Shown one piece after another: positions 18,222 through 43,046 of a DNA stretch of 43,631 nt. The stretch covers positions 1-43,631 of the forward strand of contig JAGLYK010000004.1 of assembly GCA_023132255.1 (NCBI GenBank), read 5' to 3'. The notes below the pieces were generated by a model. The model was not told the DNA's origin, searched no databases, and worked only from the letters and a program-made list of their open reading frames with translations. The position numbers and the translations under genes were made by a program. Every line of letters starts with the position of its first letter. Within the stretch, counting starts at the first letter, position 1. This DNA comes from Candidatus Pacearchaeota archaeon (GTDB lineage Archaea; Nanobdellota; Nanobdellia; Pacearchaeales; GW2011-AR1).

Positions 18222-19250
18222 ATGAAAATAAGTAAAACATATGACTTGATTATTATCGGTGCCGGGCCTGCGGGCTTGACTGCTGCATTGTATGCTGCAA
18301 GATATAAAGTAAATGTTTTAGTAATTGGAATGCTGCACGGAGGAACAGCAACAGAAGCACATAAGGTTTGTAATTTTCCTTCTTATGAAAATGTTGGCGG
18401 AGTTGAATTAATGCTGAAGATGATAAAACAGGTGAAGAATTTGAAAGTTGAAATAAAACAAGAGGAAGTTATTAATATTAACAGAAAAGATTTATTTAAA
18501 ATTGTGACGAACAAAGAAGAATATTCTTCCAAGAAAATAATTATCGCAACAGGTTCCAAGAGAATGAAGCTTGGTGTTGAAAGAGAGGAGGAGTTAACTG
18601 GAAAGGGGATTCATTATTGCACGACTTGTGATGCGGGTTTTTACAAAGCCAAGACTGTCGGGGTTGTCGGAGGGGGGAATGCTGCATTAACTTCTGCATT
18701 GCTTTTGGCGAAGATTGCAAAAAAGGTTTATGTTATTTATAGAAGGGATAAATTTTTCAAGGCAGAGCCAATGTGGGTTGATGAAGTTAAAAAAGAAAAG
18801 AAAATTGTTCCTGTTTTTAATTCAAAGGTTTTGGAGTTGATTGGAAAAAATAAACTTGAGGAAGTTGAAATAAAACAGGTTTATGCACCGCCTGGTGTAC
18901 CGCCTCACTACGTTCCCGGCGCGAGAACCTCTAACGAGGTACCCCCTGATACCCAAGGAGGGCACGAGAACCTGCAAGCAGGTATGCAGGGTGGAATACT
19001 CGGGGGCAAGAAAATAAAATTAGATGGTTTGTTTATTGAGATTGGGGGGATTTCAAATATTAAGCTGGCGAAGTTGCTTGGGATAAAACTGGAAAGGAAT
19101 TATATTAAAGTTGACAAGGAGCAGAAGACAAATGTCGAGGGTGTTTTTGCTGCGGGTGATGTTACAAATAATTGTTTGAAGCAAATTGTGACTGCATGCG
19201 GTGAGGGTGCTGTTGCTGGTTTTTCTGTTTTCAGGGATTTGAGGAAATAG
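18222..19250 (+). CDS. trxB: Thioredoxin reductase (interrupted in frame by GC-rich insert ~18884..19010)
   Basis: DLIIIGAGPAGLTAALYAARY, CTTCDAGFYKAKTVGVVGGGNAAL, VEGVFAAGDV; ATG at 18222 preferred over upstream GTG. Confidence 0.9.
   Translation: MKISKTYDLIIIGAGPAGLTAALYAARYKVNVLVIGMLHGGTATEAHKVCNFPSYENVGGVELMLKMIKQVKNLKVEIKQEEVININRKDLFKIVTNKEEYSSKKIIIATGSKRMKLGVEREEELTGKGIHYCTTCDAGFYKAKTVGVVGGGNAALTSALLLAKIAKKVYVIYRRDKFFKAEPMWVDEVKKEKKIVPVFNSKVLELIGKNKLEEVEIKQVYAPPGVPPHYVPGARTSNEVPPDTQGGHENLQAGMQGGILGGKKIKLDGLFIEIGGISNIKLAKLLGIKLERNYIKVDKEQKTNVEGVFAAGDVTNNCLKQIVTACGEGAVAGFSVFRDLRK
18884..19010 (+). repeat. GC-rich in-frame compound palindromic insertion within trxB
   Basis: GCACCGCCTGGTGTACC...ATACTCGGGGGCAAG; hairpins ACCTC-TAAC-GAGGT and ACCTGC-AA-GCAGGT; encodes P/G-rich segment APPGVPPHYVPGARTSNEVPPDTQGGHENLQAGMQGGILG. 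Confidence 0.75.
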
Positions 19251-19284
19251 GAAGTTTTATAATAGTGGTTTTTTCCTGAAGATT

Positions 19285-19566
19285 ATGGAAAAAATAAATA
19301 AAGATAATCTTGAAAAGGCGTTGGATAATAAAGAATCTGTTCCGCAGATTTCAAAGGCACCACAGGCGTACCCCGAAGAATCTTCTGCGAAGATTCTTAC
19401 TGAGGGCAAGGAAGAAATCGGGTTTCACAAAGGTGCGTTGAATACTTTGGTGAGTGAAAGAAATGAGTTGTTTAAGATGATGCAAAATGTTGAGGGAATT
19501 ATGCAGGCGCATTTGAAAAGGCTTGAAGAACTTGGTGTGAAGATTCAAACTCAAGAAAAGAAGTGA
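19285..19566 (+). CDS. Hypothetical small protein carrying a palindromic insert
   Basis: 93-aa ORF with KAPQAYPEESSAKILTEGKEE segment. Confidence 0.6.
   Translation: MEKINKDNLEKALDNKESVPQISKAPQAYPEESSAKILTEGKEEIGFHKGALNTLVSERNELFKMMQNVEGIMQAHLKRLEELGVKIQTQEKK
19356..19412 (+). repeat. In-frame palindromic element, copy 2
   Basis: CCACAGGCGTACCCCG-[AAGAATCTTC TGC GAAGATTCTT]-ACTGAGGGCAAGGA. Confidence 0.8.
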
Positions 19567-19634
19567 TTCTAAAGATTTTTATTGTAGTTTCAGAGGACAA
19601 TAATCTTTAAAAATTAAGAATAAATAGTTTGAAA

Positions 19635-19883
19635 ATGGTTTGGACAAGAAATGAAATTAGGGAATATCAACCAAGAGATAATGAAAAGTTGATTAAATTA
19701 TATAGGAGGAATAATCTGTCTACAGAAGATCCAGAGGGTATAGCAAAATTCTTGGCAGAAAATTATTTAGGTTTCACAATGACTGACCATGATTTAGTGA
19801 TGAGAAAAGCAGCAAATGAAGGAAGACCTGCTACTTTAAATTTTATGGAAGATATGGCTATTGGTTTTCTAGAGAAAGAATAA
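19635..19883 (+). CDS. Hypothetical protein
   Basis: ORF of ~82-84 aa; start 19629 or 19635. Confidence 0.45.
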   Translation: MVWTRNEIREYQPRDNEKLIKLYRRNNLSTEDPEGIAKFLAENYLGFTMTDHDLVMRKAANEGRPATLNFMEDMAIGFLEKE

Positions 19884-19916
19884 TTTTATAAATTAGTTCT
19901 ATTTTAATTTTATTAT

Positions 19917-20049
19917 GCGAGGGTGCTGGAGTGGTCAAACAGGCAGCCCTTAAGCGCTGAAACTTTCAGTTTCACATTCTCCTCTTTCAGAGAAAGCGAA
20001 GAAAGGCTGTAGCTTAGTGCTTGCGCAGGTTCAAATCCTGTCCCTCGCA
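19917..20049 (+). tRNA. tRNA-Leu(TAA) with ~49-nt intron (19955..20003)
   Basis: Acceptor GCGAGGG/CCCTCGC + A; anticodon stem CAGCC/GGCTG, loop CTTAAG^A; BHB-like pairing CTT/AAG and GCT/AGC; long variable arm; T-arm CAGGTTCAAATCCTG. Confidence 0.88.
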
Positions 20050-20052
20050 TTT

Positions 20053-20249
20053 GAAGGAAACCTAAGCGGTTTCCTCTCACACTCCTTCCCTTCTTGTTCA
20101 GGTGGGCGATTTCTTTACGACTCCCGACTTCGCACGGGGATTTATTTTCATTTGTCCCTACCATCCCACTGGGATGACTCAACTTTGTTGAGCCTCGGAA
20201 ATCGCTCGCACTCGACGGAAATCGCATAGTGGGGAACCCTTGGTTCCCT
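20053..20249. repeat. Structured repeat (family G) copy downstream of tRNA-Leu
   Basis: GGAAACC-taagc-GGTTTCC hairpin then CTTGTTCAGGTGGGCGATTTCTTTAC...GAAATCGC; similar to 36445-36700; contains nested palindromes. Confidence 0.75.
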
Positions 20250-20408
20250 TTTCGCCACCACCTTAAAATACTCCGTAACATTTATATAGTCTAGAAATAT
20301 CTTATTTTTGTAGGAGGCATTAACTTCGGTTTTTGTTGGATGCTTCGGTATTCTTTCTCCTACACTATTTTTTAAATATCTATTTCATATATTTTCTATG
20401 AAAAAAAA
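20250..20408. repeat. 159-bp direct repeat, copy 1 (promoter + small structured RNA + first nt of nuclease ORF)
   Basis: Matches 20467-20625 with one mismatch. Confidence 0.95.
20310..20374 (+). ncRNA. Candidate small structured RNA, copy 1
   Basis: Starts ~25 nt after TATA-like TTTATATA; closing stem GTAGGAG/CTCCTAC; internal hairpins AAC-TTCG-GTT and GATGC-TTCG-GTATT; followed by T6. Confidence 0.6.
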
Positions 20409-20466
20409 CTTTTAAGACTTCTCGTCCCATGAAAATTAAGAGGACGATTTTTCGTACAACACCTTA

Positions 20467-20625
20467 TTTCGCCACCACCTTAAAATACTCCGTAACATTT
20501 ATATAGTCTAGAAATATCTTATTTTTGTAGGAGGCATTAACTTCGGTTTTTGTTGGATACTTCGGTATTCTTTCTCCTACACTATTTTTTAAATATCTAT
20601 TTCATATATTTTCTATGAAAAAAAA
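20467..20625. repeat. 159-bp direct repeat, copy 2
   Basis: Matches 20250-20408 with one mismatch. Confidence 0.95.
20527..20591 (+). ncRNA. Candidate small structured RNA, copy 2
   Basis: As copy 1; sole mismatch changes G.U to A-U in GATAC-TTCG-GTATT hairpin. Confidence 0.6.
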
Positions 20626-21388
20626 TGTTATTGTTCTAATTGGTTTGATTATTATTTTATTCGCAGTGAATTATTCTTTTTTAGATTCTTTGTTGATTAA
20701 TCTTTTTGATGAAGGAGAAGTTGTAATTGTTGAAAAAGTTATTGACGGGGACACGATTGTTGCGGGAAAGGTTTCTGTAAGATTGCTGGGGATTAATTCT
20801 CCTGAAAGAAAAGAGCAGTACTATGAGGAAGCCAGGGAATTTTTAGAGGACGCTGTTCTTAATAAGACCGTGATACTTAAGTTTGGAAAGGAAAAGCAGG
20901 ACAAGTATAACAGAACTCTTGCGTATGTTTTTGTCGGGAATAAAAATTTGAATCTGGAAATGGTGAAAAATGGTTTTGCTAATTTTTATTTTCCTTCTGG
21001 GAGGGATGTTTATTATGATGATTTTAAGAGCGCATGGGAAGAGTGCGAGGAGAATTTATGTGAAAGGTCTGCAGATGAATGTGCTGATTGTATTGAGTTG
21101 GAAGAATTTGATTATGAAAATGAAATCGTTGTTTTTTATAACAAGTGTGATTTTGACTGCGAGTTGACTGAATGGGAAATTAAAGATGAGGGCAGAAAGA
21201 GTTTTGTGTTTCCTGAGTTTGTTTTGGGGGTGGGGAAAAATGTCAAGGTGATTGTTTCCGAGGAGGATGTTGTTGATAATCAGGAGGAGGTATTTTGGAG
21301 GAGAAAGGATTATGTCTGGACAGATTCAGGGGACACTTTGTTTTTGCGGGACAGCAAGGGGAAGCTGGTTTTATGGGAGAATTATTGA
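20615..21388 (+). CDS. Secreted staphylococcal-nuclease-like protein with C-terminal lamin-tail-like domain
   Basis: N-terminal hydrophobic signal; VIDGDTIVAGKVSVRLLGINSPER..KYNRTLAYVFVG; C-terminal beta-rich VFYNKCDFDCELTEWEIKDEGRKSFVFP. Confidence 0.8.
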   Translation: MKKNVIVLIGLIIILFAVNYSFLDSLLINLFDEGEVVIVEKVIDGDTIVAGKVSVRLLGINSPERKEQYYEEAREFLEDAVLNKTVILKFGKEKQDKYNRTLAYVFVGNKNLNLEMVKNGFANFYFPSGRDVYYDDFKSAWEECEENLCERSADECADCIELEEFDYENEIVVFYNKCDFDCELTEWEIKDEGRKSFVFPEFVLGVGKNVKVIVSEEDVVDNQEEVFWRRKDYVWTDSGDTLFLRDSKGKLVLWENY

Positions 21389-21684
21389 GCAATAATAACT
21401 TTTTTCTTTGGCATAATAATCTCATCAAAAACTTCAATCAATTTTTTAACAAAAAGGTTAGCAATATTCAACTTAAATAATTTAGCGTTTCCTATTTGTC
21501 TTGTTGGAGTTATAATTTTTGCATTTAACAAATCCTCCCAAATTCTAAATAAAGTTGTTCTCCCTATTTCAGCTCCTTCTGCAATATCGCTTATGCTATA
21601 ATCTAATTCCCTTCCCTCAATGAGAAATTCCAACACTCTTATTTTTGGAGTGTCTCCCAAAGTTTGCCTAAATAATGTTTCCAT
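21382..21684 (-). CDS. Winged-helix transcriptional regulator
   Basis: TPKIRVLEFLIEGRELDYSISDIAEGAEIGRTTLFRIWEDLLNAKII. Confidence 0.75.
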   Translation of the reverse strand: METLFRQTLGDTPKIRVLEFLIEGRELDYSISDIAEGAEIGRTTLFRIWEDLLNAKIITPTRQIGNAKLFKLNIANLFVKKLIEVFDEIIMPKKKVIIAQ

Positions 21685-21785
21685 ATATATTCATTAATTT
21701 ACTAATTTATAAATGTTCCTATTTTGAAACATTAGTGTTCCTTGATAATCCAAACTTTTAATAATACATAATTATCTAATACACA

Positions 21786-22049
21786 ATGAATGAAGAATTA
21801 AAAGAGGTGATTATGAAAAGATTCCTCAGGAAATTACTTAATTTGAACATATGGGGAGGCAGGCATACAGAACTTAAAAATTTACAAAAAGCTTTGCCTT
21901 CGCATTTGCGTGGAAGCAAAGAAACTAAAAAAGCCATAAAAGAATTAATAAAAAAGAGATTTTTAAATATAAAACCTTCAACTGGCGAAAAACATGTTTC
22001 TCTTAACAGCCACAAACAAAAAGAAATTTATGAATTTTTGGATAGATAA
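21786..22049 (+). CDS. Hypothetical basic wHTH-like protein
   Basis: 87-aa ORF; helix-rich C-terminal half. Confidence 0.5.
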   Translation: MNEELKEVIMKRFLRKLLNLNIWGGRHTELKNLQKALPSHLRGSKETKKAIKELIKKRFLNIKPSTGEKHVSLNSHKQKEIYEFLDR

Positions 22050-22069
22050 TTTTTTCTTTTCTCTCTTTC

Positions 22070-22124
22070 ATCAATTCCAAGTAATGACAAAAACATATTT
22101 CCCGACGACAATAATGTTTATGCA
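22070..22124 (+). promoter_or_regulatory. Shared upstream motif, copy 1
   Basis: catcaattccaagtaatgacaaaaacatatttcccgacgacaataatgttta. Confidence 0.75.
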
Positions 22125-22156
22125 AAAACTTATAATCTCTTTTTCTATATGATTTT

Positions 22157-22675
22157 ATGAAAAAAACAAGAGTTTCAATTTTTATTGATGGCAGCAATCT
22201 TTATAATAATTTAAAACAATATAAAATAAATAAAAAATTTCAGGAGATAATTGAAGTTTTAGTAAAAGAGGGGGATATTGCAGATATTTTTTATTATACT
22301 GCTTCTCTTGATATAACTTTTAATGAAGAAAAATATTGGAAACACCAAAGATTTTTAGGGAAACTCCGAGAGATTCCAAAGTTTAATGTGGTTCTTTGCA
22401 CACTCAAAAAATCAATTGAGAAAGGCGGCTCAACAAAATTTACAATAAAAGGTGATGATGTTTGCCTTGCAAATGATTTAATTAAAGGAGCATATGAGGA
22501 TTTATACGACATAGCAATAATAGTAAGTGGGGATGAAGATTTTATTCCTGCAATTAAAACTGTGCAAACATTAAATAAAAAAGTGATAAATGCATTTTTT
22601 CATAAAAGTTCTTCTAATGCATTAAGAAGTATTTGTAATAATTGTATTAATTTAGGAAAAGAGTTGAAGAAATAA
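22157..22675 (+). CDS. NYN/PIN-like domain (LabA/DUF88-type) protein
   Basis: RVSIFIDGSNLYNNLKQ ... YDIAIIVSGDEDFIPAIKTV. Confidence 0.85.
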   Translation: MKKTRVSIFIDGSNLYNNLKQYKINKKFQEIIEVLVKEGDIADIFYYTASLDITFNEEKYWKHQRFLGKLREIPKFNVVLCTLKKSIEKGGSTKFTIKGDDVCLANDLIKGAYEDLYDIAIIVSGDEDFIPAIKTVQTLNKKVINAFFHKSSSNALRSICNNCINLGKELKK

Positions 22676-22783
22676 ATATAAAGGGCCCGGCATTGCCCGA
22701 AGACCATACCGGGGAATATATTAATATTATTACAAAATTAAACTATTTAAAACCTTTGCTTTTACTTTTCCTAAATCCTGTTT

Positions 22784-22840
22784 CATCAATCCCAAGTAAT
22801 AACAAAAAAATAGTTTCCCGACGACAATAATATTTATAAA
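22784..22840 (+). promoter_or_regulatory. Shared upstream motif, copy 2, with TATA box
   Basis: catcaatcccaagtaataacaaaaaaatagtttcccgacgacaataatatttataaa; TATA ~26 nt before ATG 22862. Confidence 0.8.
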
Positions 22841-22861
22841 GGAGGTTATAAATAATAAAAT

Positions 22862-23734
22862 ATGAAGAAAACACACTTAATTTTAGGCGTTCTTGTTTTT
22901 GCTCTTTTAGCCATGCCTTTTGCATTGGCAGATACTCTTTCAATTGGAAGTGACGATAATGTAGAATGGTCTGCTGACGGTGTTGATTGGTATCCAGCAT
23001 ATAATACATGGGTTCATCCTGCTTGGCCAAGTATTTATGGCGCTTCATGGATTTGGAGAACATCTCAAACAGACCCTGCTGAGGAATATGCTAATGTTCC
23101 AGATGGGGGATGGTATTTTAGAAAAACTTTTGATATTCCCGGATGTGTTGATGAAGAGAATCTTGTAGGAACAGTAACTGCTGCTGCAGATAATTCTTAT
23201 GAAATGTATTTTAATGGGGCTTATGTAGATGGCAGAGGTACTATGGATAAAAATGGTCCAGATGCTCAAAGTTGGAGATTAAAACAAACTTCTGATCTTA
23301 CAGGGTTAGTTAATGGAGAGAATGAAATTCTTTTTAGAGCACTAAACTATTATAGTCATGGTAGTTATTCAAGTAATCCAGCTGGTTTAATTTTCCAAAT
23401 AGAAGTTGAATTTGAAGAGGATTATGATGATGATGGTATTTGTGGAGGAGATATAGATATGTGTTTAGATACAAAGGAAGACACTCCCTTAAGACTTGGA
23501 ACAAACAGATGGATTTGGGACGGAACAGAATGGATAACAGGAGAACTAAAAGGCAAAGGAGTAGGTCCCAAAAAATCATTCACTATACAAGACACACATG
23601 GATGCAGTTGTGAACAAATCTTAGATTATCTTCATGAAAACTATCCAGAAGAATACGGGAAGATGAAAGGACATAGGAAGTTTGGTTGTAGCTCAAGCGT
23701 GATGGATGCATTCTTGGAACTAACATCTGAATAA
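22862..23734 (+). CDS. Secreted protein, galactose-binding-like beta domain
   Basis: Signal peptide MKKTHLILGVLVFALLAMPFALA; WYFRKTFDIPG..NSYEMYFNGAYV. Confidence 0.65.
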   Translation: MKKTHLILGVLVFALLAMPFALADTLSIGSDDNVEWSADGVDWYPAYNTWVHPAWPSIYGASWIWRTSQTDPAEEYANVPDGGWYFRKTFDIPGCVDEENLVGTVTAAADNSYEMYFNGAYVDGRGTMDKNGPDAQSWRLKQTSDLTGLVNGENEILFRALNYYSHGSYSSNPAGLIFQIEVEFEEDYDDDGICGGDIDMCLDTKEDTPLRLGTNRWIWDGTEWITGELKGKGVGPKKSFTIQDTHGCSCEQILDYLHENYPEEYGKMKGHRKFGCSSSVMDAFLELTSE

Positions 23735-23807
23735 AACTTTTATTTTTCTCTTTTTCTTTTTTATTTATTTTTAATTTTTATTTTGAAATTAATTTCAAAT
23801 TCTTTTC

Positions 23808-23862
23808 ATTTATTTTAAGTAATAACAAAAAATAGTTTCTCGACGACAATAATATTTATAAA
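23808..23862 (+). promoter_or_regulatory. Shared upstream motif, copy 3, with TATA box
   Basis: catttattttaagtaataacaaaaaatagtttctcgacgacaataatatttataaa. Confidence 0.8.
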
Positions 23863-23884
23863 GAATTTAATTCTTAATTTTATT

Positions 23885-24118
23885 ATGGTGATAAAAAAGG
23901 AAATAAAAAAGCAATTAATTAATTTTTCACAAATTCATGGTTATGCGTATAACAAGTATAACAATACTTGGCCAGATTTAATTTGGCAACTGAGGCTTTG
24001 TTGTAACAGACAAGGTGAAAAAATAACTGATGCAAAAAACATCTCTTTGAGATTTGTAGCACAACAATTTTTTCCACAACAACAAAGTGAAAAAATAATT
24101 GAAAGGAGGTTTAAATAA
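23885..24118 (+). CDS. Small leader ORF upstream of secreted protein
   Basis: 77 aa; 3' end contains GGAGG SD for the next gene; stop 5 nt before ATG 24124. Confidence 0.5.
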   Translation: MVIKKEIKKQLINFSQIHGYAYNKYNNTWPDLIWQLRLCCNRQGEKITDAKNISLRFVAQQFFPQQQSEKIIERRFK

Positions 24119-24123
24119 AAAAT

Positions 24124-26823
24124 ATGAAAAAATTAATATTAAGTGTATTAATGTTGGGAGTTATGATGATGACAGTGATGGGAGTTGTTAGTGCTAACGG
24201 ATATTATGAAAGACCTTGTGCAGATGTAGATATTTGTACATGGACTACTTCAGAATGTCCAGATAATGGTTTACCTTTGGGTTCTGAAGATAATTCTAAT
24301 TGTGGGTTAAGTTATAATACCTATTGGCCAATAGATACTACTGCAACTGCTACATGTGTTTTTGATGGAGATGACTTAGCAAATGCAATGTTATATATTT
24401 CAATAAATAATGATATTGTAAGTTGTACTTTAAATGGTCAACAAGTTTTTGGGAGTACAATTCATGAAAATTGTGCACCAGTAGACCCAAGAAACGGGTT
24501 TTCACAAGACATTTACTCTGAAGTTTTAGATGGAACAAATACTTTAATTTGTGAAGTTCGAGATAGAGGAGTTATGACTCATTTTGATGCTTGTGTGATT
24601 GGAGAATATGAAGAACCATGCCAAGTAATTGTAGACGAACCACAAGCCTCTCATTGGTACGACCCTGTTACAATCCAGTGGCATTATGAAGGTGATTGTG
24701 AGATTCTTGATCAAGAAATTTACTATTATGAAGGTGAATGTACTGGTAATTCTGAATCTGTTGTTGAATTAGATAATAATTGGCAAAGAGAATATGAATG
24801 GGATGTTTCTGAACTAGAAGATGGAGATTACTGTGTTTGCATTTACGGCGAACAAGTTAAAGATGGGGTCATTGGTTGTTCAGGTGTTTGGCATCTTGAT
24901 TTGACTGACCCTATTTCAACAATTTCATTTGGATATCCAAGTGTTTTGATTGGAGAAGATTATTATATAAATACAAACACTCCAATAACAATAACATGTG
25001 AAGATGAGGGAAGTGGTCCAAAAACAATATTCTATAACATTTATGTAGAAGATGGATGTGGTGGATGGATTCAAGCTCATAAATTTTCTGGAAATGTAGA
25101 AGATGACCCTCATAAAGTTGAGTTTACATGTCATGAAGAATCTAGACATAAGATAGAATATTGGTGTGTGGATAAAGTAGGAAAAGATGAAGAACCTAAT
25201 GAAGAGATAATTTTTGTTGATACTACTGCGCCAATAATTGAAAAAACAATTGTTGGTCCACAACATGGCGATTGTCCTCCTGAATATGAAGAGGATATAT
25301 GTTATATTGATGGAATCACAGAGATTCATGTTGATGCATATGACCCAAAACCACATCCAGTAAATGATGTTTATTGTAGTTGGTGGTATTCTGTTAATAA
25401 AGAACCTGCTGGAAAAGGAGATGAAGAAATTCTTCCTTTTGTTATTAATTTCCCAGAAGAATCCTATCATGAACTTTGGATTGAGTGTTGGGATGCTTTA
25501 GGAAATTATGTAATAGACTACGAAGCATTTTATGTGGATAAAACTCCGCCAGTAATTTGGAAAGACTATATTGGTCCATATTATGAAGAAGAAAGTGTTG
25601 AATGGATTGATGGAGAAACAGTTATTCATTTTGGAGCATATGAAGATGGTGAACACGATTCTGGATTAGCCGAATTATCTTATAGAGTCACTCTTGTAGA
25701 TGATGATTACTGCTGGAACCCAGATATTTGTTATCAGGCACAAGGTTCAGAAGAATGGACATCTGTAGAAGGTAGTGAAGGTTCATTCCAGATTGAAGAA
25801 CAATCATGCCACCTTATAGAAATCTATGCTGAAGATAATGTAGAGAAAGGAAATCTTCATAAACAATGTGTATTCGTCGACAAAACACCACCAACACTTT
25901 ACAAAGATGTTGGAGAACCAAGTCATTATTGTCATGGATTTTGGGAATCAATAACTGGAAAATGTGAAGACCACTGGGACTGGATTGTTACAATGGATAC
26001 AGAAATTGAATTGAGTTGTGAAGATAAAGGAGATCATCCATCTGGAGTTGATAAACTCTGTTGGAAAATGGAATGGGATGATGAAGATGTAACAGCACAG
26101 GAATGTGTGAGTGCTCAAGGAACAATGGAAGGAGAATGGTGTTGTATTTCTTCAAGTAAAACAACTGTTCAATTTTATACAGAATGCGAACACACCTTAG
26201 AATTCAAATGTATAGATAATGTTGAAAAAACCGCTTATCATGAATTAGAAGTTTTCAAAGTTGAAGGAGAAGCATTTACAATTTATCTTGAAAAGAAATG
26301 GAACTTGATTTCAATTCCTTTTAACTTGATTAGCAATAACATTGAAGAAGTTTTTGACCAAATTTCAAATGAAGTTGAAGTTGTATGGACTTATTATGAT
26401 GGTGAATGGTATGTTTATACCCCAAACGGAGGTCCAGATACTTTAGAAACAATAGAGCCAGGATATGGTTATTGGGTTAAGATGAGCGACTATGCAGAAC
26501 TTGTTGTTGGTGGAAGTTTGTTAAGCCCTGGACCAGGAATTCCTCCAAGTAGAGAATTACAAGAGGGATGGAATTTGATTGGGCGTTATGGATTAGGTGA
26601 AAAGGATGCATATTGTGCATTATTCTCTTTAGTTGACACTACAATAGGTTTCCCAAGATGGAGTGCTTTATACAGTTATGATGCAGTAGATGACGAATTC
26701 ATAGCTTTGGGCACTGGAAGTGACACATATCCTGGAGAAGGATACTGGATTAACATGATACAAAATGATTTAGGAGAGGTATATGTTTATAGTCCTGCAA
26801 CAGCTTGTTGGGGATATTGGTAA
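24124..26823 (+). CDS. Large secreted Cys-containing Ig-like repeat protein
   Basis: Signal peptide; repeated (V/F)VD(K)T(T/P)P blocks; C-terminal KKWNLISIPFNL/EGWNLIGRYGL repeats. Confidence 0.7.
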   Translation: MKKLILSVLMLGVMMMTVMGVVSANGYYERPCADVDICTWTTSECPDNGLPLGSEDNSNCGLSYNTYWPIDTTATATCVFDGDDLANAMLYISINNDIVSCTLNGQQVFGSTIHENCAPVDPRNGFSQDIYSEVLDGTNTLICEVRDRGVMTHFDACVIGEYEEPCQVIVDEPQASHWYDPVTIQWHYEGDCEILDQEIYYYEGECTGNSESVVELDNNWQREYEWDVSELEDGDYCVCIYGEQVKDGVIGCSGVWHLDLTDPISTISFGYPSVLIGEDYYINTNTPITITCEDEGSGPKTIFYNIYVEDGCGGWIQAHKFSGNVEDDPHKVEFTCHEESRHKIEYWCVDKVGKDEEPNEEIIFVDTTAPIIEKTIVGPQHGDCPPEYEEDICYIDGITEIHVDAYDPKPHPVNDVYCSWWYSVNKEPAGKGDEEILPFVINFPEESYHELWIECWDALGNYVIDYEAFYVDKTPPVIWKDYIGPYYEEESVEWIDGETVIHFGAYEDGEHDSGLAELSYRVTLVDDDYCWNPDICYQAQGSEEWTSVEGSEGSFQIEEQSCHLIEIYAEDNVEKGNLHKQCVFVDKTPPTLYKDVGEPSHYCHGFWESITGKCEDHWDWIVTMDTEIELSCEDKGDHPSGVDKLCWKMEWDDEDVTAQECVSAQGTMEGEWCCISSSKTTVQFYTECEHTLEFKCIDNVEKTAYHELEVFKVEGEAFTIYLEKKWNLISIPFNLISNNIEEVFDQISNEVEVVWTYYDGEWYVYTPNGGPDTLETIEPGYGYWVKMSDYAELVVGGSLLSPGPGIPPSRELQEGWNLIGRYGLGEKDAYCALFSLVDTTIGFPRWSALYSYDAVDDEFIALGTGSDTYPGEGYWINMIQNDLGEVYVYSPATACWGYW

Positions 26824-26888
26824 ATTTTAATGGAGAATGAAAATTCTCCTTTCTTTCTTTTTTATTTTTTTATAAATTAGTGTTAACT

Positions 26889-26936
26889 ATAGTAATAACA
26901 AAAACTATATTTACGACGACAACAATGCTTTTAAAG
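26889..26936 (+). promoter_or_regulatory. Shared upstream motif, copy 4
   Basis: tagtaataacaaaaactatatttacgacgacaacaatgcttttaaag. Confidence 0.75.
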
Positions 26937-26956
26937 AGATTAATTATAAGTTTATT

Positions 26957-27847
26957 ATGAAAAAAGAAATAATAATTGGATTAATGTTTATTTTTGTATT
27001 GAGTTTTATTTCTGCAAATCCTCCTATGCCTTGTGCTTTTTATGGTGAAGTTACTCATCCAAATCAAACATTTCCAAATGGACATTTTATCACAGCAAAG
27101 ATAAATGATGTTGTGAGCGGAGAATGCAAGATAATAGATGAAAAATATGGTTATGGGGGAAATACATGTATTATTTTGTCTTATCAAGATAATGTTAATA
27201 TTAAATTTTACATTGGAGATGAAGAAATAGGTGAAGGGTTATTTAAAGATAAAGAAGTTGTGAAGATTGATTTTGAAGTTGATTTTATCCCCGAAACAAG
27301 TGGAAATTATTCAAATGGGGTGTGTGAACCTGAATTAGGAGAATGTTCATTTAATATATTAGATTGTGATTCTGCAATAACAGATATTTGTAAGGGTAAT
27401 GGTGTTTGTGATTTTGTAATTGGTGAAACATGCTTAAATGCTCCTGAAGATTGTGGTGTTTGTGAATACTGCGGAGACGGTGTTTGCAATAATGCAGAAA
27501 CATGCTCAACATGTTCTCAAGATTGTGGTGTTTGCCCTTCAAATAATAATGGTAATGGTGGAAACGGTGGTGGCGGAGGAGGTGGCTCAAGCAGTTCTTC
27601 AACTGCAACCACACAAACAACTGATGATATTCTTAACTTAAATTTTGAAACAAAAAATGATAGTACTAAAATAGATTCTAATGAAAACCAACAAACAACA
27701 AGTTCTGGACTTACAGGAGGGGTAATTGGTTTTGTAAAAACAGGAAAAGGAATTGGTTTAATATTTGGAATTTTAATTATTGTCTTTGGAATAGGGGTGA
27801 TTGCAATACAAAAATACAAAACAAAATCACCTCAAAATGAAAAATAA
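26957..27847 (+). CDS. Secreted Cys-rich protein with Gly/Ser linker and C-terminal anchor
   Basis: Signal peptide; CGDGVCNNAETCSTCSQDCGVCP; NGNGGNGGGGGGGSSSSS; GLTGGVIGFVKTGKG-TM-K-rich tail. Confidence 0.7.
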   Translation: MKKEIIIGLMFIFVLSFISANPPMPCAFYGEVTHPNQTFPNGHFITAKINDVVSGECKIIDEKYGYGGNTCIILSYQDNVNIKFYIGDEEIGEGLFKDKEVVKIDFEVDFIPETSGNYSNGVCEPELGECSFNILDCDSAITDICKGNGVCDFVIGETCLNAPEDCGVCEYCGDGVCNNAETCSTCSQDCGVCPSNNNGNGGNGGGGGGGSSSSSTATTQTTDDILNLNFETKNDSTKIDSNENQQTTSSGLTGGVIGFVKTGKGIGLIFGILIIVFGIGVIAIQKYKTKSPQNEK

Positions 27848-28655: not shown

Positions 28656-28740
28656 TCTTAAAATTTTTCTTTTTTATTTCTTAAAACTATTTGGTTTTCA
28701 AAACCGAATTAATTAAAAAGGTGTTTTCTTTTTTCATTTT

Positions 28741-29583: not shown

Positions 29584-29584
29584 T

Positions 29585-29905
29585 ATGAAAAAGATTAAAT
29601 TATTATCTGCGGATTTTGGCAATAAAATTTTTACCCGAAGTATAATTTCTAATTTTTTTGATAAATTAAAAAATTTTAAAGAAAAGGAAATTGTGCTTGA
29701 TTTTAAAGATATAGATTTTGTTTCAAGATCATGTGCAGACGAGTATTTAAAATTGAAAGAGAAAACATCAAAAAAACTTGTGGAGGAAAATATGTCTGAT
29801 GCGGTTTGCTCTATGTTTAAGTTAGTTGAAACTCAGCATAAAAATTCTGGGATTACTTATTCGATAAATTCTTCTGTTGATAAAAATTCTATGATTCCAG
29901 TGTAA
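29585..29905 (+). CDS. STAS-like (DUF4325-type) protein
   Basis: EIVLDFKDIDFVSRSCADEYLKL; directly downstream of HATPase gene. Confidence 0.7.
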   Translation: MKKIKLLSADFGNKIFTRSIISNFFDKLKNFKEKEIVLDFKDIDFVSRSCADEYLKLKEKTSKKLVEENMSDAVCSMFKLVETQHKNSGITYSINSSVDKNSMIPV

Positions 29906-29963
29906 TATTATGAAGAAATTACAAGTTTAATTATTCAAGTTTTTTCTTTTATTTCTTTCCCGT

Positions 29964-30021
29964 TTCATTAATTCCAAGTAATGACAAAAACTATATTCCC
30001 AACGACAATAATGCTTATAAA
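29964..30021 (+). promoter_or_regulatory. Shared upstream motif, copy 5, with TATA box
   Basis: ttcattaattccaagtaatgacaaaaactatattcccaacgacaataatgcttataaa. Confidence 0.8.
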
Positions 30022-30042
30022 CAAATTTGTTATAATTTTGTT

Positions 30043-33958: not shown

Positions 33959-34107
33959 CTAAAGATTTTACGAGAGATCAAATATTAATAATTATTGATA
34001 TTTTTTTAATAAGAATAATTAAAAATAAATTATAAAATATGTGAAATAAAGTTTCAATAATTAAATTCTCCATTACTGATCTCAGAAAGTTTTAGCATTT
34101 TTTAACA

Positions 34108-34146
34108 TAATTAAGTATGTTCTCCAGAACAATAATGCTTTTAAAG
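34108..34146 (+). promoter_or_regulatory. Divergent copy 6 of shared upstream motif
   Basis: taattaagtatgttctccagaacaataatgcttttaaag. Confidence 0.55.
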
Positions 34147-34167
34147 TGTTGTCACTCTAAAATTGTT

Positions 34168-36147: not shown

Positions 36148-36186
36148 ATAGTTATATTTATAATACCCTAATTCTTCTTCAATTTT

Positions 36187-36443
36187 GTAGACCAGTTAGC
36201 GGGTTAGCCCTCCGCGATTGCAAACGGGCTTTATGGCAGACTGCAGGAGGGGCGTGATTAGTGCGTCGGGAAGTCCTTGTTCGGACGTTGACGTTTTGTC
36301 CGCTTTGATCTTGCAGATGCAAATCGGGTCAGGCCTTGATCGGAGCAGCCCTAAACATTTGTTAAGATGCTTGGCGGGTCGCAGAACCGAGGAAGAACTT
36401 GGGTAGCTTTTTGATTATCTGAGCAGCAAACCTCCTTGTCTAC
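36187..36443 (+). ncRNA. SRP RNA (7S RNA)
   Basis: S-domain signature GGGTCAGG-CC..GG-AGCAGCCC at 36326-36351; terminal pairing GTAGAC (36187) / GTCTAC (36438); GC-rich in AT-rich context; TATA-like ttatatttataat upstream. Confidence 0.85.
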
Positions 36444-36444
36444 T

Positions 36445-36703
36445 GAAGGAAACCAAGGTTTCCTCTCACACACCATCCTTCCTGTTCAGGTGGGCGACTT
36501 CTTTACATATTTCGATGAAAATCGCGAATCTATCCAACCTAAGCGGTTCTTTGGAATCTCCCTTCTTGTTCCGTGAAGCAACTTCTTTAAGAACCTCCGA
36601 TGGAAGTTGCATATTTATGAACCTAAGTGGTTTCCTTTCACACACCATCCTTTTCTGTCCATGTAAGCGATTTCTTTATTGCAATCTGATGGAAATCGTA
36701 TGA
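36445..36703. repeat. Three tandem copies of structured repeat family G
   Basis: Units ~36445-36516, ~36536-36612, ~36619-36703: (GGAA)ACC-taagc-GGTTTCC.TCTCACACACCATCC..CTGTTC.GTG.GCGATTTCTTTA..CGATGGAAATCGC. Confidence 0.75.
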
Positions 36704-36759
36704 AGAGATGTAATCTTAAGGATGAAAACATTAATAAACTTTTTTTTATTATTTTATTC

Positions 36760-37212
36760 ATGAGAGGCAAGAAAGGTCAGTTTTATTTGATTGCAACAAT
36801 TATTATCATTGCTGTAATTATAGGATTTGCCACAATTTCTAATTATGCTCAAAGACAAGATTATGTAAAGATTTATGATTTAGGGGAAGAGTTGAATATT
36901 GAAAGTGAAAATGTTTTGGATTACGGGGCAGCAACAGGAAACAGCAAATTAAGTCAATTTGGTAAAGATTATTCAGAATATGCCGGAGAAGATATAGAAA
37001 TATATTTCATAACAGGTGATGAAAGTGGCATGGAAGCCCATAAATATGTTAACGGCGAGGAAACTTTATTAGATGCTCCTGAAGTAAAAGAAGATAAAAT
37101 AATATTTAAACTTAATGAAGACGAATATGTGTTTGAATTAAAACCAGGAGAAAATTTTTATTTTATAATTTTTCAGGAAGCAAATAATGAAAAATATGTA
37201 ATTACCAACTAA
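36760..37212 (+). CDS. Type IV pilin-like protein
   Basis: MRGKKGQFYLIATIIIIAVIIGFATISNYA class III signal-like; start corrected from 36679. Confidence 0.7.
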   Translation: MRGKKGQFYLIATIIIIAVIIGFATISNYAQRQDYVKIYDLGEELNIESENVLDYGAATGNSKLSQFGKDYSEYAGEDIEIYFITGDESGMEAHKYVNGEETLLDAPEVKEDKIIFKLNEDEYVFELKPGENFYFIIFQEANNEKYVITN

Positions 37213-37258
37213 TATAAACAATAGAAGAATTTAAAAATAATGATTTGCTTTTAATAAA

Positions 37259-37726
37259 ATGAAAAACAAAAAAGGGGTTTCGCCGGTAATTGCTACTGTA
37301 TTATTAATTGCAATGGTTGTTGTGATAGGATTGATTATTTTTTTATGGTTCAGAGGATTAAATGAAGATGCAATAACAAAGTTCGGAAAAAATGTGGAGC
37401 TTGTTTGCGGTGATGTTAGTTTTAGTGCAGATTATGATTCGTATTCGGGAAGATTAAGTATTGTGAATGACGGGAATGTCAATATTTTTAATATGAATAT
37501 TAAAATTTTTAAATCTGGGAGTCACGAAACAAAAGACTTGAGAGAGAACTTTAATGGCTGGCCCAAAGCAGGACTAAATCAAGGAGAAGCGACTTCTATG
37601 TATGTAGATTTTGGAAGTGGTGTTGAAAAGATAATTTTAATTCCTGTTTTAGCAGGGAAATCTGAAAAAGGAGACAGGACTTTTGTCTGTAAGGAAAAAG
37701 ACGGAAGAGAAATTAGTTTAACATGA
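37259..37726 (+). CDS. Archaeal type IV pilin
   Basis: MKNKKGVSPVIATVLLIAMVVVIGLIIFLWFRG. Confidence 0.85.
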   Translation: MKNKKGVSPVIATVLLIAMVVVIGLIIFLWFRGLNEDAITKFGKNVELVCGDVSFSADYDSYSGRLSIVNDGNVNIFNMNIKIFKSGSHETKDLRENFNGWPKAGLNQGEATSMYVDFGSGVEKIILIPVLAGKSEKGDRTFVCKEKDGREISLT

Positions 37727-38424
37727 AAAATAATAAAAAAGCAAAAATAAATTTTTTCATTCCTCGAATTTTGCCAAATTCAAAGAAAGCAAAATCAACA
37801 CTGCCTAGTGCATACCCAAAGGGCACGAGAACCTCTTCGAGGCCCCGAGATATTTGGGGAAAGATTTTCCATTACAATGTTCTTCCAGAAAATCGTAGAT
37901 CAGGATTAAAAATCCCTCACAATAATTTTTTTCCAAAAAATCATAAAGGACTTTCAATTATTATTTCTACACTAATTTTAATTGCTTTGGTTATTTCAGC
38001 GATTGCAATTGTTTGGGTAACTGTAGCGAATTTATTAACAAGCAGGCTGGATGCGGCAGAATCCTGCATGAATATTTTTGAGAAGGTTGAAATAAATGAA
38101 CTATATACTTGTTATAATAGTACTTCGAGTAAGTTTCAGTTTTCAATAAATATCAAGGATATAAATCTTGATGAGATTATTGTTTCAATTTCTGGAGAAG
38201 GAATAACAAAAAGCTATACTTTAACTAACGAGGACCAAAGTATTTCTGGATTAGGACCTTATCCTTCTGGTTCTGGGAATGTCAAACTTCCCGGGGAAAA
38301 TTCCGGCTTAACATATATTTCAAGTGATTTTTCCAGCACACCTGACTCAATAAAAATTGCACCTGTTATAAATGGGAACCAATGCGAAGTCTCTGATTCA
38401 GTACTTGAAATTTATCTTTGTTAG
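37723..38424 (+). CDS. Pilin-like protein with in-frame insert in its leader
   Basis: KNHKGLSIIISTLILIALVISAIAIVWVTVANLL preceded by ~75-aa atypical N-terminus. Confidence 0.7.
   Translation: MKNNKKAKINFFIPRILPNSKKAKSTLPSAYPKGTRTSSRPRDIWGKIFHYNVLPENRRSGLKIPHNNFFPKNHKGLSIIISTLILIALVISAIAIVWVTVANLLTSRLDAAESCMNIFEKVEINELYTCYNSTSSKFQFSINIKDINLDEIIVSISGEGITKSYTLTNEDQSISGLGPYPSGSGNVKLPGENSGLTYISSDFSSTPDSIKIAPVINGNQCEVSDSVLEIYLC
37802..37870 (+). repeat. In-frame palindromic element (subtype shared with trxB insert)
   Basis: CATACCCAAAGGGCACGAGAACCTC-TT-CGAGG..CCCCGAGATATTTGGGG; shares ATACCCAARG-GGGCACGAGAACCT with 18949-18974. Confidence 0.65.
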
Positions 38425-38550
38425 GATTATAACTTTTTTGCAAAAAGATTATAAAGTGAATTAAAAATTCCCGTCATAACATTTTCTCAAGGAAAAGATT
38501 ATAGAGTAAATTAAAAATTTTCACTATAACTTTTTTACAAAAAGATTATA
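38423..38550. repeat. Imperfect tandem ~46-51-bp TATA-containing repeats
   Basis: aaaaagattataaagtgaattaaaaatt.. / aaaagattatagagtaaattaaaaatt.. / aaaaagattataaacc. Confidence 0.65.
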
Positions 38551-38573
38551 AACCAAATCTTACTTGATGGTTT

Positions 38574-39137
38574 ATGAAAAGAGGAAAGTTGGGGAACCGA
38601 AGTAAAAGAGGGCAAGTTTGGATTGAAACTGTAATTTATACTTCAATTGCATTGCTTATGATTGGACTTGTTCTTAGTTATGCAAAACCAAAAATAGAAA
38701 AATTCCAAGACAAGGCGATTCTTGAGCAGTCGCTTGAAATGTTTAAAGCAATTGATAATACTATAAGAACAATCGGGGTTGCGGGAAACAAGAGATTTAT
38801 TGAGATTGGAATAAAAAAAGGGAATTTGAAAATAGACGGGGAAAATGACAAAATTATTTTTGAGATGGAAAGTAGTTACCTTTATAGTCAACCCGGGGAA
38901 GATATTGTTGATACCTTCGGGGGGAGGATAGTCACACGTACTGAAAAAACCAGGGGGTTGAACAAAGTAACTTTTACAATTAATTACACTGCATATAACA
39001 TAGATATAACTTATCAGGGAAAGGACGAATTCAAAACACTAAACAAAGCCCCAACACCTTACAAGTTGCTTATTTCAAATAATGGTAAAAGTAGTAACAA
39101 CACACTTATTGATATAAGTTTACAAGGTCTTAATTAA
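38574..39137 (+). CDS. Pilin-like/archaellum accessory-like protein
   Basis: SKRGQVWIETVIYTSIALLMIGLVLSYAKPKIEKFQDKA. Confidence 0.7.
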   Translation: MKRGKLGNRSKRGQVWIETVIYTSIALLMIGLVLSYAKPKIEKFQDKAILEQSLEMFKAIDNTIRTIGVAGNKRFIEIGIKKGNLKIDGENDKIIFEMESSYLYSQPGEDIVDTFGGRIVTRTEKTRGLNKVTFTINYTAYNIDITYQGKDEFKTLNKAPTPYKLLISNNGKSSNNTLIDISLQGLN

Positions 39138-39138
39138 A

Positions 39139-40692
39139 ATGGTTAAAAAGATAAACATACAGAATTATCCAAGAGTGCTGATAGATTTCTCTCCGGAGAT
39201 TCCTCCATTAAAAAAAATGATTGACAAGACAAAACTTAATATTAGGTATTGCTTGATTTCGCCGTTTGCTTTTGCTCATATTTATTGGGATCCGAAAATT
39301 TATGAACTTGTATATAAAATTGAAGAACCAATACTGGATGAAAAAGAAAAAGAATCCAGAAAGGAGATTGTTTCTGCGATGAGAAACATGATTAATTTTG
39401 ATAGTGTTGTTCAAAAAAACAAGGAAGCGTTGATGGAGTATATTGAGCAAAGGCTTAAAATTATCGCTACTGAACTCAGGATAAATCTTTCTTATGAAAG
39501 TTACAAGAAGATTTATTATTATCTTTGCAGGGATTTTATAGGATTCAATGAGACAGAGCCGTTGCTGAGAGATTATTTTGTAGAAGATATTGAGTGTAAT
39601 GGAATTAACTCTCCCGTGTATATTGTTCATAGAATTTATAGAAACATAAAAACAAATTTGGTGTTTAATGACGGGGGCTTGCTGGAAAATTTTGTGGAAA
39701 AGCTTTCTCAAAGATGCGGGAAATATGTTTCCTATGCCCAGCCAATATTGGACGGAAGCCTGCCTGATGGTAGCAGGGTTAATGCAACTTATACAAAAGA
39801 CATCACAAGCAAGGGACCGACTTTTACAATAAGGAAGTTCACAAAAAAGCCGTGGACTCCGACGCAGTTGCTGGCATTCAATACACTAAGTCCGGAGATA
39901 CTTGCTTATCTTTGGTTATTAGTTCAGTATAAAATGAATATTCTTATTTCTGGGGGAACTGGTTCTGGAAAAACTACTTTGCTTAATGCTATTGCGTTTT
40001 TTATTCCGCAAGAGGCAAGAGTAGTTTCAATTGAGGACACAAGAGAATTAAATCTTCCTAGGGAAAACTGGCTCCCGAGTGTGGTGAGAGTATCAACAGG
40101 ATTAAAAAAAGTTGGGGAGATAGACTTGTTCACTTTACTGAGGAGTTCTTTTAGGCAGAATCCAGATTATGTAATTGTTGGGGAAGTGAGAGGTAAAGAA
40201 GCATATGTGCTGTTTCAGGGTATGGCGTCGGGGCATCCTTCTATCAGTACTATTCACGCAGATTCTGTTGACACTGTGATAAAAAGATTAAAAACTCCTC
40301 CTATTGAACTTTCCCCAACCTTGTTAAATGTTCTTGATTGCGTTTGCATCATGACTCATGCTATCGTAAATAAGCACGAAACAAGAAAGTTAAGGGAGAT
40401 AGTGGAGATAATTAATGTAACTTCTGAAGGACTTGCAATGACAAACACTCCTTTTGTCTGGAATCCTTCTGACGACCAGTTTTATTTTAAGAAAAATAGT
40501 AAAATATTTCAAAAGATTGCAAAAAGAACTGGCTTGAAAATTGAGGAAATTGATTTAGAATTTAGGAGGAGAATTCAGCTAATTCACAAACTACATCAAA
40601 AGAAAATTTTTGATTTTAACGAGGTTCAGGAGATAATTAATGAATATGCTAAAAAACCCAGAGAAGTTTTGAGAGAATTTGGAATTGAATAA
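39139..40692 (+). CDS. Type II/IV secretion system ATPase (PilB/TadA/ArlI family)
   Basis: Walker A SGGTGSGKTTLLNA; GEVRGKEAYVLFQGMASGHPSISTIHA. Confidence 0.93.
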   Translation: MVKKINIQNYPRVLIDFSPEIPPLKKMIDKTKLNIRYCLISPFAFAHIYWDPKIYELVYKIEEPILDEKEKESRKEIVSAMRNMINFDSVVQKNKEALMEYIEQRLKIIATELRINLSYESYKKIYYYLCRDFIGFNETEPLLRDYFVEDIECNGINSPVYIVHRIYRNIKTNLVFNDGGLLENFVEKLSQRCGKYVSYAQPILDGSLPDGSRVNATYTKDITSKGPTFTIRKFTKKPWTPTQLLAFNTLSPEILAYLWLLVQYKMNILISGGTGSGKTTLLNAIAFFIPQEARVVSIEDTRELNLPRENWLPSVVRVSTGLKKVGEIDLFTLLRSSFRQNPDYVIVGEVRGKEAYVLFQGMASGHPSISTIHADSVDTVIKRLKTPPIELSPTLLNVLDCVCIMTHAIVNKHETRKLREIVEIINVTSEGLAMTNTPFVWNPSDDQFYFKKNSKIFQKIAKRTGLKIEEIDLEFRRRIQLIHKLHQKKIFDFNEVQEIINEYAKKPREVLREFGIE

Positions 40693-40757
40693 TTCATCCT
40701 CAAAGGATGACCTTGAAAGGCCTAAATATTTAATAAGACAAATTACTTATTTGAACA

Positions 40758-40943
40758 ATGATAAAAAAAGAGGATATTATGTTTCTTAATCAATTAGTCA
40801 AGACTCTTGAAAAAGCTGAGTTAAAACTTGAAGAAGCTTATGATAAGAAGGATTATGAAATTTTTAATAATATGAAAAAGTTAATTATGCAAATTCAAAA
40901 GAAAATTTCAGAGTTGCTGAATAATTCTCGTGTGCGATATTAG
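40758..40943 (+). CDS. Small helical hypothetical protein
   Basis: 61-aa ORF between pilus genes. Confidence 0.5.
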   Translation: MIKKEDIMFLNQLVKTLEKAELKLEEAYDKKDYEIFNNMKKLIMQIQKKISELLNNSRVRY

Positions 40944-41119
40944 GAGAAGTTTTGCGAAGAAGAATTTGGGAAAATCTCGAGCCGAGAGTTTTTCTCTTTA
41001 ATCCCTGTTATGTCTCCCGACGACTAAAAGAAGGAAAGTATAGAGGGGTAAAATCCAAAGAATTTTGAGTTCAGAATTTAGGCGTTAAGTTTATAAAAAA
41101 AGGACAATTACTATCCATA

Positions 41120-41458
41120 ATGAAAGTAGAAAATTTAACAGAGCAACATTTGATAGAAATTGTCAAATTGTATGAAGAGCATTGTGGCTTTGGAAGAGAT
41201 TTTAGAGATGTAATGTATCAAGAACCATCCACTGTTTTAGAACACTTAAGAAAACAAGGTAGGGAAGAATATAGAATTGGCTCTAAATGGGATGGTCATT
41301 CTAAAATCTATTTTGATACTGATTTTGAAGATAATATTGAAGTAAAGTTTAACTCAAATTTTGACCCCATAGATAGACAAGGAAAAAAATTTGAAGAAGC
41401 TGAAACATCAGGCAAAATATTTGTAAAAACCGCAATGCAATATCTTAGTCTTCAATAG
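41120..41458 (+). CDS. Hypothetical protein
   Basis: 112-aa ORF. Confidence 0.5.
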   Translation: MKVENLTEQHLIEIVKLYEEHCGFGRDFRDVMYQEPSTVLEHLRKQGREEYRIGSKWDGHSKIYFDTDFEDNIEVKFNSNFDPIDRQGKKFEEAETSGKIFVKTAMQYLSLQ

Positions 41459-41576
41459 CCCGAATTCTGAATTGCCCATAACACTTTTTAATCAAACTTT
41501 TATAAAAAATATTAAATGTTAGGGGGAGAAACAAATATAGAAAATATAAAAAGCCCTTTAGACTAGATATAATAAG

Positions 41577-43046
41577 ATGGTTGAAGAAAAAAGAGGTTCG
41601 AGTGAATTAAAAAAAATAATTTTAGAAAAAAAGAAGATTATCAAAGAAATAAGTTCTTTGTTTGCGATATTGGAAAGAACAAGGGACAGCGAAGAGAGAG
41701 AAATGATTTCTTCGCAAATTAATTTATTAGAAGATTCTTTGAAGAAAAGAAACAACGATCTCTCAGGAGCATTAAGAAAAATATCCTTGGTAAAACCTTT
41801 AGGCAACTTTGCAACAATAAAAGGCACACCACAGGCGTACCCCGAAACATTTTTTGGAAAAATGTTTACTAGGGGCAAAGATGACTTCCTGAGAATTCAT
41901 GATAAACAACAACACAAAAGTTTACTAGGCAACTTTGCAAAAAGCAAATCAGAGATTTCCATGTTTCCCTCGATAAACTCGGTAAAAACTAAAAAGATTG
42001 AGTCAAATGAAAAAGAGATGGTTAAAGTTTCAAAAAAAGGAAAAATAAAACTTCCGAAAAATTTCTTAGAACTTGAAAAAGAAACATTAAAACGGCTTGG
42101 GAACAAGGAGAAAAAGATTATTAAAAATAAGGTGAAAAAACCAAGCAAGTATGTCAAAATAGCTAATAGGATTTTTATTAATCTTTCAAAACCTCTTTCT
42201 AAGAAAAAAATATTTGACATATTAAAAACATCTCTTATAAAATCAAATATGCAATTTATCCCTTTAAATTATATTTCAATAATTTTATTCACTACCTTGC
42301 TGTCAGTGATTTTTAGCATATTTGTTTTTGGATTTTTTTTATTTTTTAATTTTGGACCTGAACTCCCCATTATAACAAAAATTACCGAGGATATTGGAAC
42401 AAGATTCTTGAAAATATTCTGGATTTTATTTGTTATTCCTCTTGGGACCATTTCATTCATGTACTTTTATCCTTCAATAGAAAGAAGAGCTATCGAGAAT
42501 AGAATCAATCATGAACTTCCTTTTGCAACAATTCATATGTCGGCAATTTCAGGCTCAATGGTTGAACCAAGCAAAATCTTCAGCATAGTGAATTCAACAG
42601 GGGAGTATCCTAACATCTCAAAAGAATTTACAAAATTGATAAATGAAATCAATGTTTATGGATATAATTTAGTTAGTGCGCTGAGAAATCTTGCGTTTAA
42701 CTGTCCAAGTTCAAAGCTCTCAGAATTATTTAATGGTTTAGCATCTACAATAAGTTCAGGAGGAGACATCCAAGATTTTTTTGAGAAAAGGGCTCAAAGC
42801 TTACTTTTTGAATATAAAATTGAAAATGAAAACCGCACGAAAATGGCAGAAACATTTATGGACATTTACATAAGTGTTGTTATTGCTGCTCCAATGATTT
42901 TCATGCTTGTGTTAATGATGATGAAGATAAGTGGATTGGGAATTTCACTAAGCACATCAATGATTAGTCTAATCATGGTCTTAGGAGTAGCAATGATGAA
43001 CATTGTCTTCCTGACATTTTTACATTTAAAACAACCAGGTGAATAA
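41577..43046 (+). CDS. Type II secretion F/TadC-like membrane protein with N-terminal extension
   Basis: Multi-TM; NHELPFATIHMSAISGSMVEPSKIF..; follows ATPase. Confidence 0.85.
   Translation: MVEEKRGSSELKKIILEKKKIIKEISSLFAILERTRDSEEREMISSQINLLEDSLKKRNNDLSGALRKISLVKPLGNFATIKGTPQAYPETFFGKMFTRGKDDFLRIHDKQQHKSLLGNFAKSKSEISMFPSINSVKTKKIESNEKEMVKVSKKGKIKLPKNFLELEKETLKRLGNKEKKIIKNKVKKPSKYVKIANRIFINLSKPLSKKKIFDILKTSLIKSNMQFIPLNYISIILFTTLLSVIFSIFVFGFFLFFNFGPELPIITKITEDIGTRFLKIFWILFVIPLGTISFMYFYPSIERRAIENRINHELPFATIHMSAISGSMVEPSKIFSIVNSTGEYPNISKEFTKLINEINVYGYNLVSALRNLAFNCPSSKLSELFNGLASTISSGGDIQDFFEKRAQSLLFEYKIENENRTKMAETFMDIYISVVIAAPMIFMLVLMMMKISGLGISLSTSMISLIMVLGVAMMNIVFLTFLHLKQPGE
41823..41880 (+). 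repeat. In-frame palindromic element, copy in TadC-like gene
   Basis: CCACAGGCGTACCCCG-[AAACATTTTT TGG AAAAATGTTT]-ACTAGGGGCAAAGA. Confidence 0.8.

Follow-up and report, generated by a model that had tools for sequence, protein, structure and literature searches.

Palindromic elements within protein-coding genes of a family of Pacearchaeota archaea

Short palindromic DNA elements lie in frame within unrelated protein genes of Candidatus Pacearchaeota archaeon contig JAGLYK010000004.1, of which positions 1-43,631 (the window, a stretch of 43,631 nucleotides (nt)) served as the reference. We consider it probable that these are mobile elements comparable to the Rickettsia palindromic elements (RPEs), translated in place and private to part of one family of Pacearchaeota within the DPANN archaea. 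A first-pass annotation of the window had suggested an archaeal equivalent of RPEs, and this suggestion has held up: the elements occur in unrelated essential genes, in frame, apparently translated, and with arms that diverge while their pairing is kept. The genome to which the window belongs is labelled G000 (625 kb, 78% complete), and the census of elements rests on searches and sequence stretches.

Structure, distribution and insertion sites

The basic unit, type I, comprises two hairpins: H1 (CACC-loop-GGYG), followed by TA, and P2 (CCCC...variable interior...GGGG), followed by CA. Its ends are CACC and GGGCA, and terminal inverted repeats were not seen. Simple type I units measure 30-54 nt, in lengths that are with few exceptions multiples of three; lengths near 120 nt are confined to compounds. 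The interior is a 10-base pair (bp) hairpin in class A, a TGATATGCAGGATGG loop in class B, a 9-bp stem around NAGGAGATATAAA in class E, and is short in classes C, D and F. Type II units (CCC-N5-GGG-CRCGAGAA-CCTC-N-GAGG, with CCTGC/GCAGG variants) are nested in type I or stand alone, and type III units (ATCCC-AC-GGGAT-GA-CCTC..GAGG) are placed in H1 loops. A type III-like unit (ATCCCACTGGGATGACTCAACTTTGTTGAGCC) at window 20160-20200 has no clear coding sequence around it, and type III units may therefore not be limited to genes.

In G000, GCGTACCCCG and its one-mismatch forms gave copies in LeuRS, DPH2, Cbf5/TruB, CysRS, GatB, GluRS, Elp3, S2, eL32, topoisomerase and others, the identity of eL32 being shown by Pfam. 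A covariance model (E ≤ 0.1) matched 16 times in G000, 19 in G001 (same genus), 6 in G014, 3 in G004 and once in G017, with matches in 5 of 37 relatives. With a looser pattern the counts rose or stayed at 30, 24, 8, 12 and 1 respectively (45 outside G000), while the reversed-pattern control gave none in four of the five genomes and one in G014. The first-pass annotation had looked to further genomic copies as a check on its claim, and the 30 pattern matches in G000 supply them. Among 371 genomes sampled from the phylum, matches were seen only in genomes of the same family, with none outside it; the bearers are Pacearchaeota/Nanoarchaeota archaea (DPANN). Most of the family is without type I elements, and type II units were found in the same five genomes as type I and in no others.

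A type I element is also found in conserved non-coding DNA (GGGCAAAGTCTNTTGTTGCG...) common to two species of one genus (L094, approximately 1505-1560, G004:C25:6354; L102/G428:C28). No tRNA, Rfam family or other known RNA matched this copy, and an Rfam search with the element gave nothing meaningful. Viral contigs were considered as carriers, and their 11 matches yielded no plausible one; contig L216, with three matches, proved unrelated, its match being antisense in a viral open reading frame (ORF). Most bacterial matches in a GTDB scan were single and GC-rich, and were judged to be due to chance.

Alignment with insert-free orthologues shows clean in-frame insertion between conserved blocks in GatB, GluRS, GyrA, PheT, TrxB, CysRS and eL32, where the inserts occupy length-variable stretches and would form mostly hydrophilic loops or tails. 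The GatB, GyrA and TrxB inserts of G000 are missing from G001, and the trxB insert is also missing from G003 and G004. The first-pass annotation had named presence in orthologues of distant lineages as a refutation, whereas most orthologues even within the family lack the segments. Different classes can occupy one site: PheT has class C in G000 and class A in G001, GatB has class A in G000 and class C in G014, and GatA has classes D and C. Elements also grow by nesting. CysRS (L007/L047) shows a 30-nt nested gain in G004 relative to G000, GluRS (L011/L093) has gained two inserts in G001 relative to G000, and a 42-nt type II unit in G000 locus L038, matching a unit nested in trxB, is absent from the G001 orthologue L079. 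In rpS2 a 45-nt element sits inside the hairpin loop of another, and no target duplication is visible. Most filled and empty comparisons likewise show none, with clean junctions in GatB, GluRS and rpS2; for the type II unit, the L038/L079 comparison shows a possible GTACC duplication.

Of 100 elements, 89 have a length that is a multiple of three, spread over eleven size classes, and all 100 are traversed by an open frame. Elements near C-termini run into the host's own normal stop; apparent frameshifts across elements in L072, L245, L061 and L066 turned out to be in-frame C-terminal tails. The elements are thus probably translated in place, judging from sequence. The shared frame that the first-pass annotation noted is true of those two window copies only; genome-wide, all three phases are used (27/56/12 among sense elements), with no single preferred frame. 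A peptide-level function was therefore rejected, the same DNA being read in three phases, and it is the DNA, not a peptide, that is conserved.

Pairing, orientation and mobility

Both-sided changes that keep pairing number 25 cells in class A, 9 in class E and 7 in class C, far exceeding the shuffled and slid controls; in class C the count of both-sided pairs was reached in 3 of 500 shuffles. The covariation proposed by the first-pass annotation is thus present in these three classes, and the H1 pairing also covaries. Arms diverge with pairing retained, and they have changed together at orthologous sites in GluRS (G000/G014) and T2SSF (G000/G001). However, selection on an mRNA hairpin is disfavoured, because the unpaired intermediates are A-C and not G-U: A-C mismatches occupy 32 cells, compared with 2 for one-sided G-U (7 columns compared with 2, in few columns and related copies). 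An A-C mismatch on one strand is a G-T wobble on the other. The A-C excess therefore speaks against folding of mRNA and fits a folded template DNA strand, which is suggestive only. The earlier claim of selection on the hairpin is refined accordingly, since the covariation does not resemble selection at the RNA level. Alternatively, perfect pairing could be caused by arm correction via template switching in replication.

By longest ORF, 95 of the 100 elements are in sense orientation. The remaining five are short or ambiguous; inspection favours sense for three, and none is convincingly antisense. Antisense frames through the elements are open as often as sense frames, yet are more hydrophobic. 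Open frames with acceptance by hydropathy alone would give about 63 antisense per 100 sense insertions, i.e. about 39% expected antisense. With hydropathy as the only factor modelled, the bias thus seems to need a mechanistic cause.

The best fit appears to be a trans-acting, strand-specific mechanism working on single-stranded DNA hairpins. Copying and insertion by this route, for which an HUH/Y1-like enzyme is a candidate, would account for the absent target duplication, the conservation of structure over sequence and the one-way orientation. The multiple-of-three lengths would be a survivor's filter imposed by residence in coding sequence. Insertion does recur within existing elements, as types II and III show. 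A Y1_Tnp domain is present in G000, G001, G004, G152 and G360. We tentatively raise a bolder and less likely reading, in which the elements would be a novel sort of enzyme-driven mobile DNA specialised for coding sequence, with template-strand folding, sense-only entry, a multiple-of-three unit and new protein loops made by self-insertion; entry would then probably be via single strands exposed by transcription.

Several observations weigh against the RPE-like reading. Y1_Tnp also occurs in G173 and G220, neither of which yielded an element, and was not detected in G014, G017, G331 or G428. No mobilising enzyme could be tied to the elements from the distribution of Y1_Tnp or from insertion sequence (IS) ends; IS200/605 ends were rejected as an element source, since the ends of IS copies are unlike those of the elements and IS flanks bear unrelated hairpins. 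To our knowledge, sense-only orientation is not a property of Y1-type transposases. In addition, element identity exceeds that of the flanking coding DNA at all five shared sites (e.g. 90% compared with 77%, and 97% compared with 79%), which is more conservation than a neutral passenger requires. Possible causes are a constraint on mobility, copy correction and host function.

Host function is the least probable of the rival explanations. Hairpins serving the host, e.g. in mRNA stability or translation pausing, would be kept by selection at the level of the cell, and mobility would be ancient. This agrees with the conservation of shared sites above their flanks and with the joint arm changes in GluRS and T2SSF. 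However, the elements are unevenly spread among members of a single genus (GatB, GyrA and TrxB being empty in G001), different classes share the PheT, GatB and GatA sites, nested insertions are recent, and most of the family does without elements. Spread as RNA that is copied back to DNA would explain the strict orientation bias and suits a structured unit; it is rather improbable, as no reverse transcriptase domain was found in G000, G001, G014, G017, G152 and G360 (genomes 68-91% complete) and the pairing statistics are unlike selection on RNA. Reverse transcriptase was thus rejected as driver, being absent from most element-bearing genomes.

Elements might instead be removed or skipped after transcription, by archaeal endonuclease splicing, a small ribozyme or ribosome bypassing, in which case the hairpin would be needed for removal and action on RNA would fix the orientation. 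Sense-only orientation, kept pairing, conservation above flanks and insertion into essential genes are all in keeping with this. Nevertheless, we regard removal as unlikely. A removed segment requires neither a length divisible by three nor a host frame without stops, C-terminal inserts read on to the gene's own stop codon, inserts are placed between conserved blocks, and common A-C with G-U nearly absent is the opposite of what folded mRNA would leave. Archaeal bulge-helix-bulge introns have unconstrained lengths and stops, in contrast to the lengths and open host frame described above, and a bulge-helix-bulge was not apparent on visual inspection, without a formal search for the motif.

Elements and other features of the window

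The first-pass annotation had noted common flanks around hairpins in two unrelated genes of the window. Both 58-nt segments are exact, and CCACAGGCGTACCCCG occurs only twice in the window at ≤3 mismatches (0.01 expected). They are better bounded as CACC...GGGCA units of 51 nt (17 codons), both type I class A and, like the other window elements below, on the forward strand. The first (19358-19408) lies in ORF 19285-19566 (APQAYPEESSAKILTEGK) and is also present in the G001 orthologue L045. The second (41827-41877) lies in a T2SSF (TadC/FlaJ-like) gene at 41577-43046 (TPQAYPETFFGKMFTRGK). The 10-bp arms and 3-nt loops were as described, with covarying arms AAGAATCTTC/GAAGATTCTT around TGC at 19376-19385/19389-19398 and AAACATTTTT/AAAAATGTTT around TGG at 41845-41854/41858-41867; the upstream mini-hairpin (CACC..GGYG) and the outer CCCC/GGGG stem had been left out. 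In the G001 T2SSF orthologue L051 the element is kept, with arms changed to AAAAATTTCC/GGAAATGTTT, i.e. two compensated pairs and one mismatch.

The longer related insert reported in trxB is indeed a compound type I element with a class B core and two nested type II units (18886-19008, CACC...GGGGGCA, 123 nt, 41 codons). Its H1 hairpin, CACC-GCCT-GGTG, is at 18886-18897 and is supported by H1 covariation. One type II unit, of 42 nt (GCC..GGC-GCGAGAA-CCTC-TAAC-GAGG-TACC), is at 18902-18943, and the other, of 33 nt (CCC-AAGGA-GGG-CACGAGAA-CCTGC-AA-GCAGG-TA), at 18952-18984, is placed in the class B loop by comparison with undisturbed class B cores. Besides these three named sites a fourth had been overlooked, a compound at 37799-37859 with H1 CACT-GCCT-AGTG, a nested type II unit TACCCAAAGGGCACGAGAACCTCTTCGAGG and an outer CCCC...GGGG, which is read as TLPSAYPKGTRTSSRPRDIWGK within ORF 37723-38424.

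Elsewhere in the window, positions 19917-20050 resemble an intron-containing tRNA (Leu/Ser type) missed by ARAGORN, in which case this organism probably splices its tRNAs. A 159-nt direct repeat of 99% identity (20250-20408 and 20467-20625) lies upstream of a nuclease-like ORF. Diverged repeat copies AACCTAAGNGGTTTCCTNTCACACNCCNTCC..TGTTCAGGTGGGCGATTTCTTTA are found in non-coding DNA at 36440-36680 and 20059-20118. A motif around CGACGACAATAATG, possibly a common promoter or regulatory box, recurs before several secreted-protein-like ORFs (22050-22140, 22805-22856, 23788-23878, 26861-26951 and 29947-30037).

Relation to known palindromic elements

Until now, Rickettsia has supplied most of the evidence bearing on whether palindrome insertion routinely generates new protein segments. 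The archaeal elements are a second case, independent of the first and stricter, with inserts in aminoacyl-tRNA synthetases, gyrase, GatA/GatB and ribosomal proteins. Because related genomes show filled, empty and nested sites, insertion, in-frame filtering and loop growth become datable and testable, and the one-way orientation and A-C intermediates raise the concrete question of the strand on which the process acts. The inserts are also a practical source of error in gene models, phylogenies and protein annotation for these genomes.

Like RPE-1 to RPE-10 and the Wolbachia palindromic elements, the archaeal elements are dispersed palindromes in frame in unrelated conserved protein genes, apparently translated, absent from orthologues elsewhere, limited to one host lineage and without a transposase of their own. 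One orthologous site can hold elements of different groups, as seen here in PheT, GatB and GatA and as reported for RPE-4/6/7 (PMC3767692). RPEs are about 100-150 bp long (PMC2229807; PMC10969869), compared with 30-54 nt for simple archaeal units, and occur between genes and in RNA genes as well (PMC2229807), whereas the archaeal elements are almost all in coding sequence. Nested in-frame elements and a two-hairpin plan were not found described for RPEs (PMC2229807; PMC10969869; PMC3767692). The hosts here are one DPANN family rather than Rickettsiales, and the comparison with RPEs is by description. RPE-1 reportedly has a single preferred frame, in contrast to the three phases used here.

Palindromic repeats, some of them in protein genes, have been described in Methanocaldococcus jannaschii (Suyama et al., 2005, as cited in PMC2229807), and the elements reported here are not the first archaeal case of protein-coding palindromes. 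The M. jannaschii repeats (MJRE) likewise include some in-frame protein fusions and belong to a different archaeal lineage, the comparison being by description only. MJRE copies are mostly extragenic, with few in coding sequence.

The IS200/IS605 family has a hairpin near each end, makes no target duplication and uses strand-specific single-stranded chemistry. The H1 and P2 hairpins and the duplication-free insertion match its derivatives (PATEs, REP/RAYT); however, the element ends do not match a resident TnpA element, and REPs are extragenic. We know of no in-frame, sense-only habit among the non-autonomous derivatives. Miniature inverted-repeat transposable elements (MITEs) such as Correia, ERIC and YPAL are small non-autonomous repeats that are sometimes fused in frame to genes, and most of them lie chiefly between genes and carry terminal inverted repeats with target duplications (PMC2229807); type I elements show neither such repeats nor such duplications. 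No description of such elements in DPANN archaea was found in the open-licence literature. Their size, two-hairpin plan, use of three phases, sense-only orientation and nesting set the archaeal elements apart from both RPEs and the M. jannaschii repeats.

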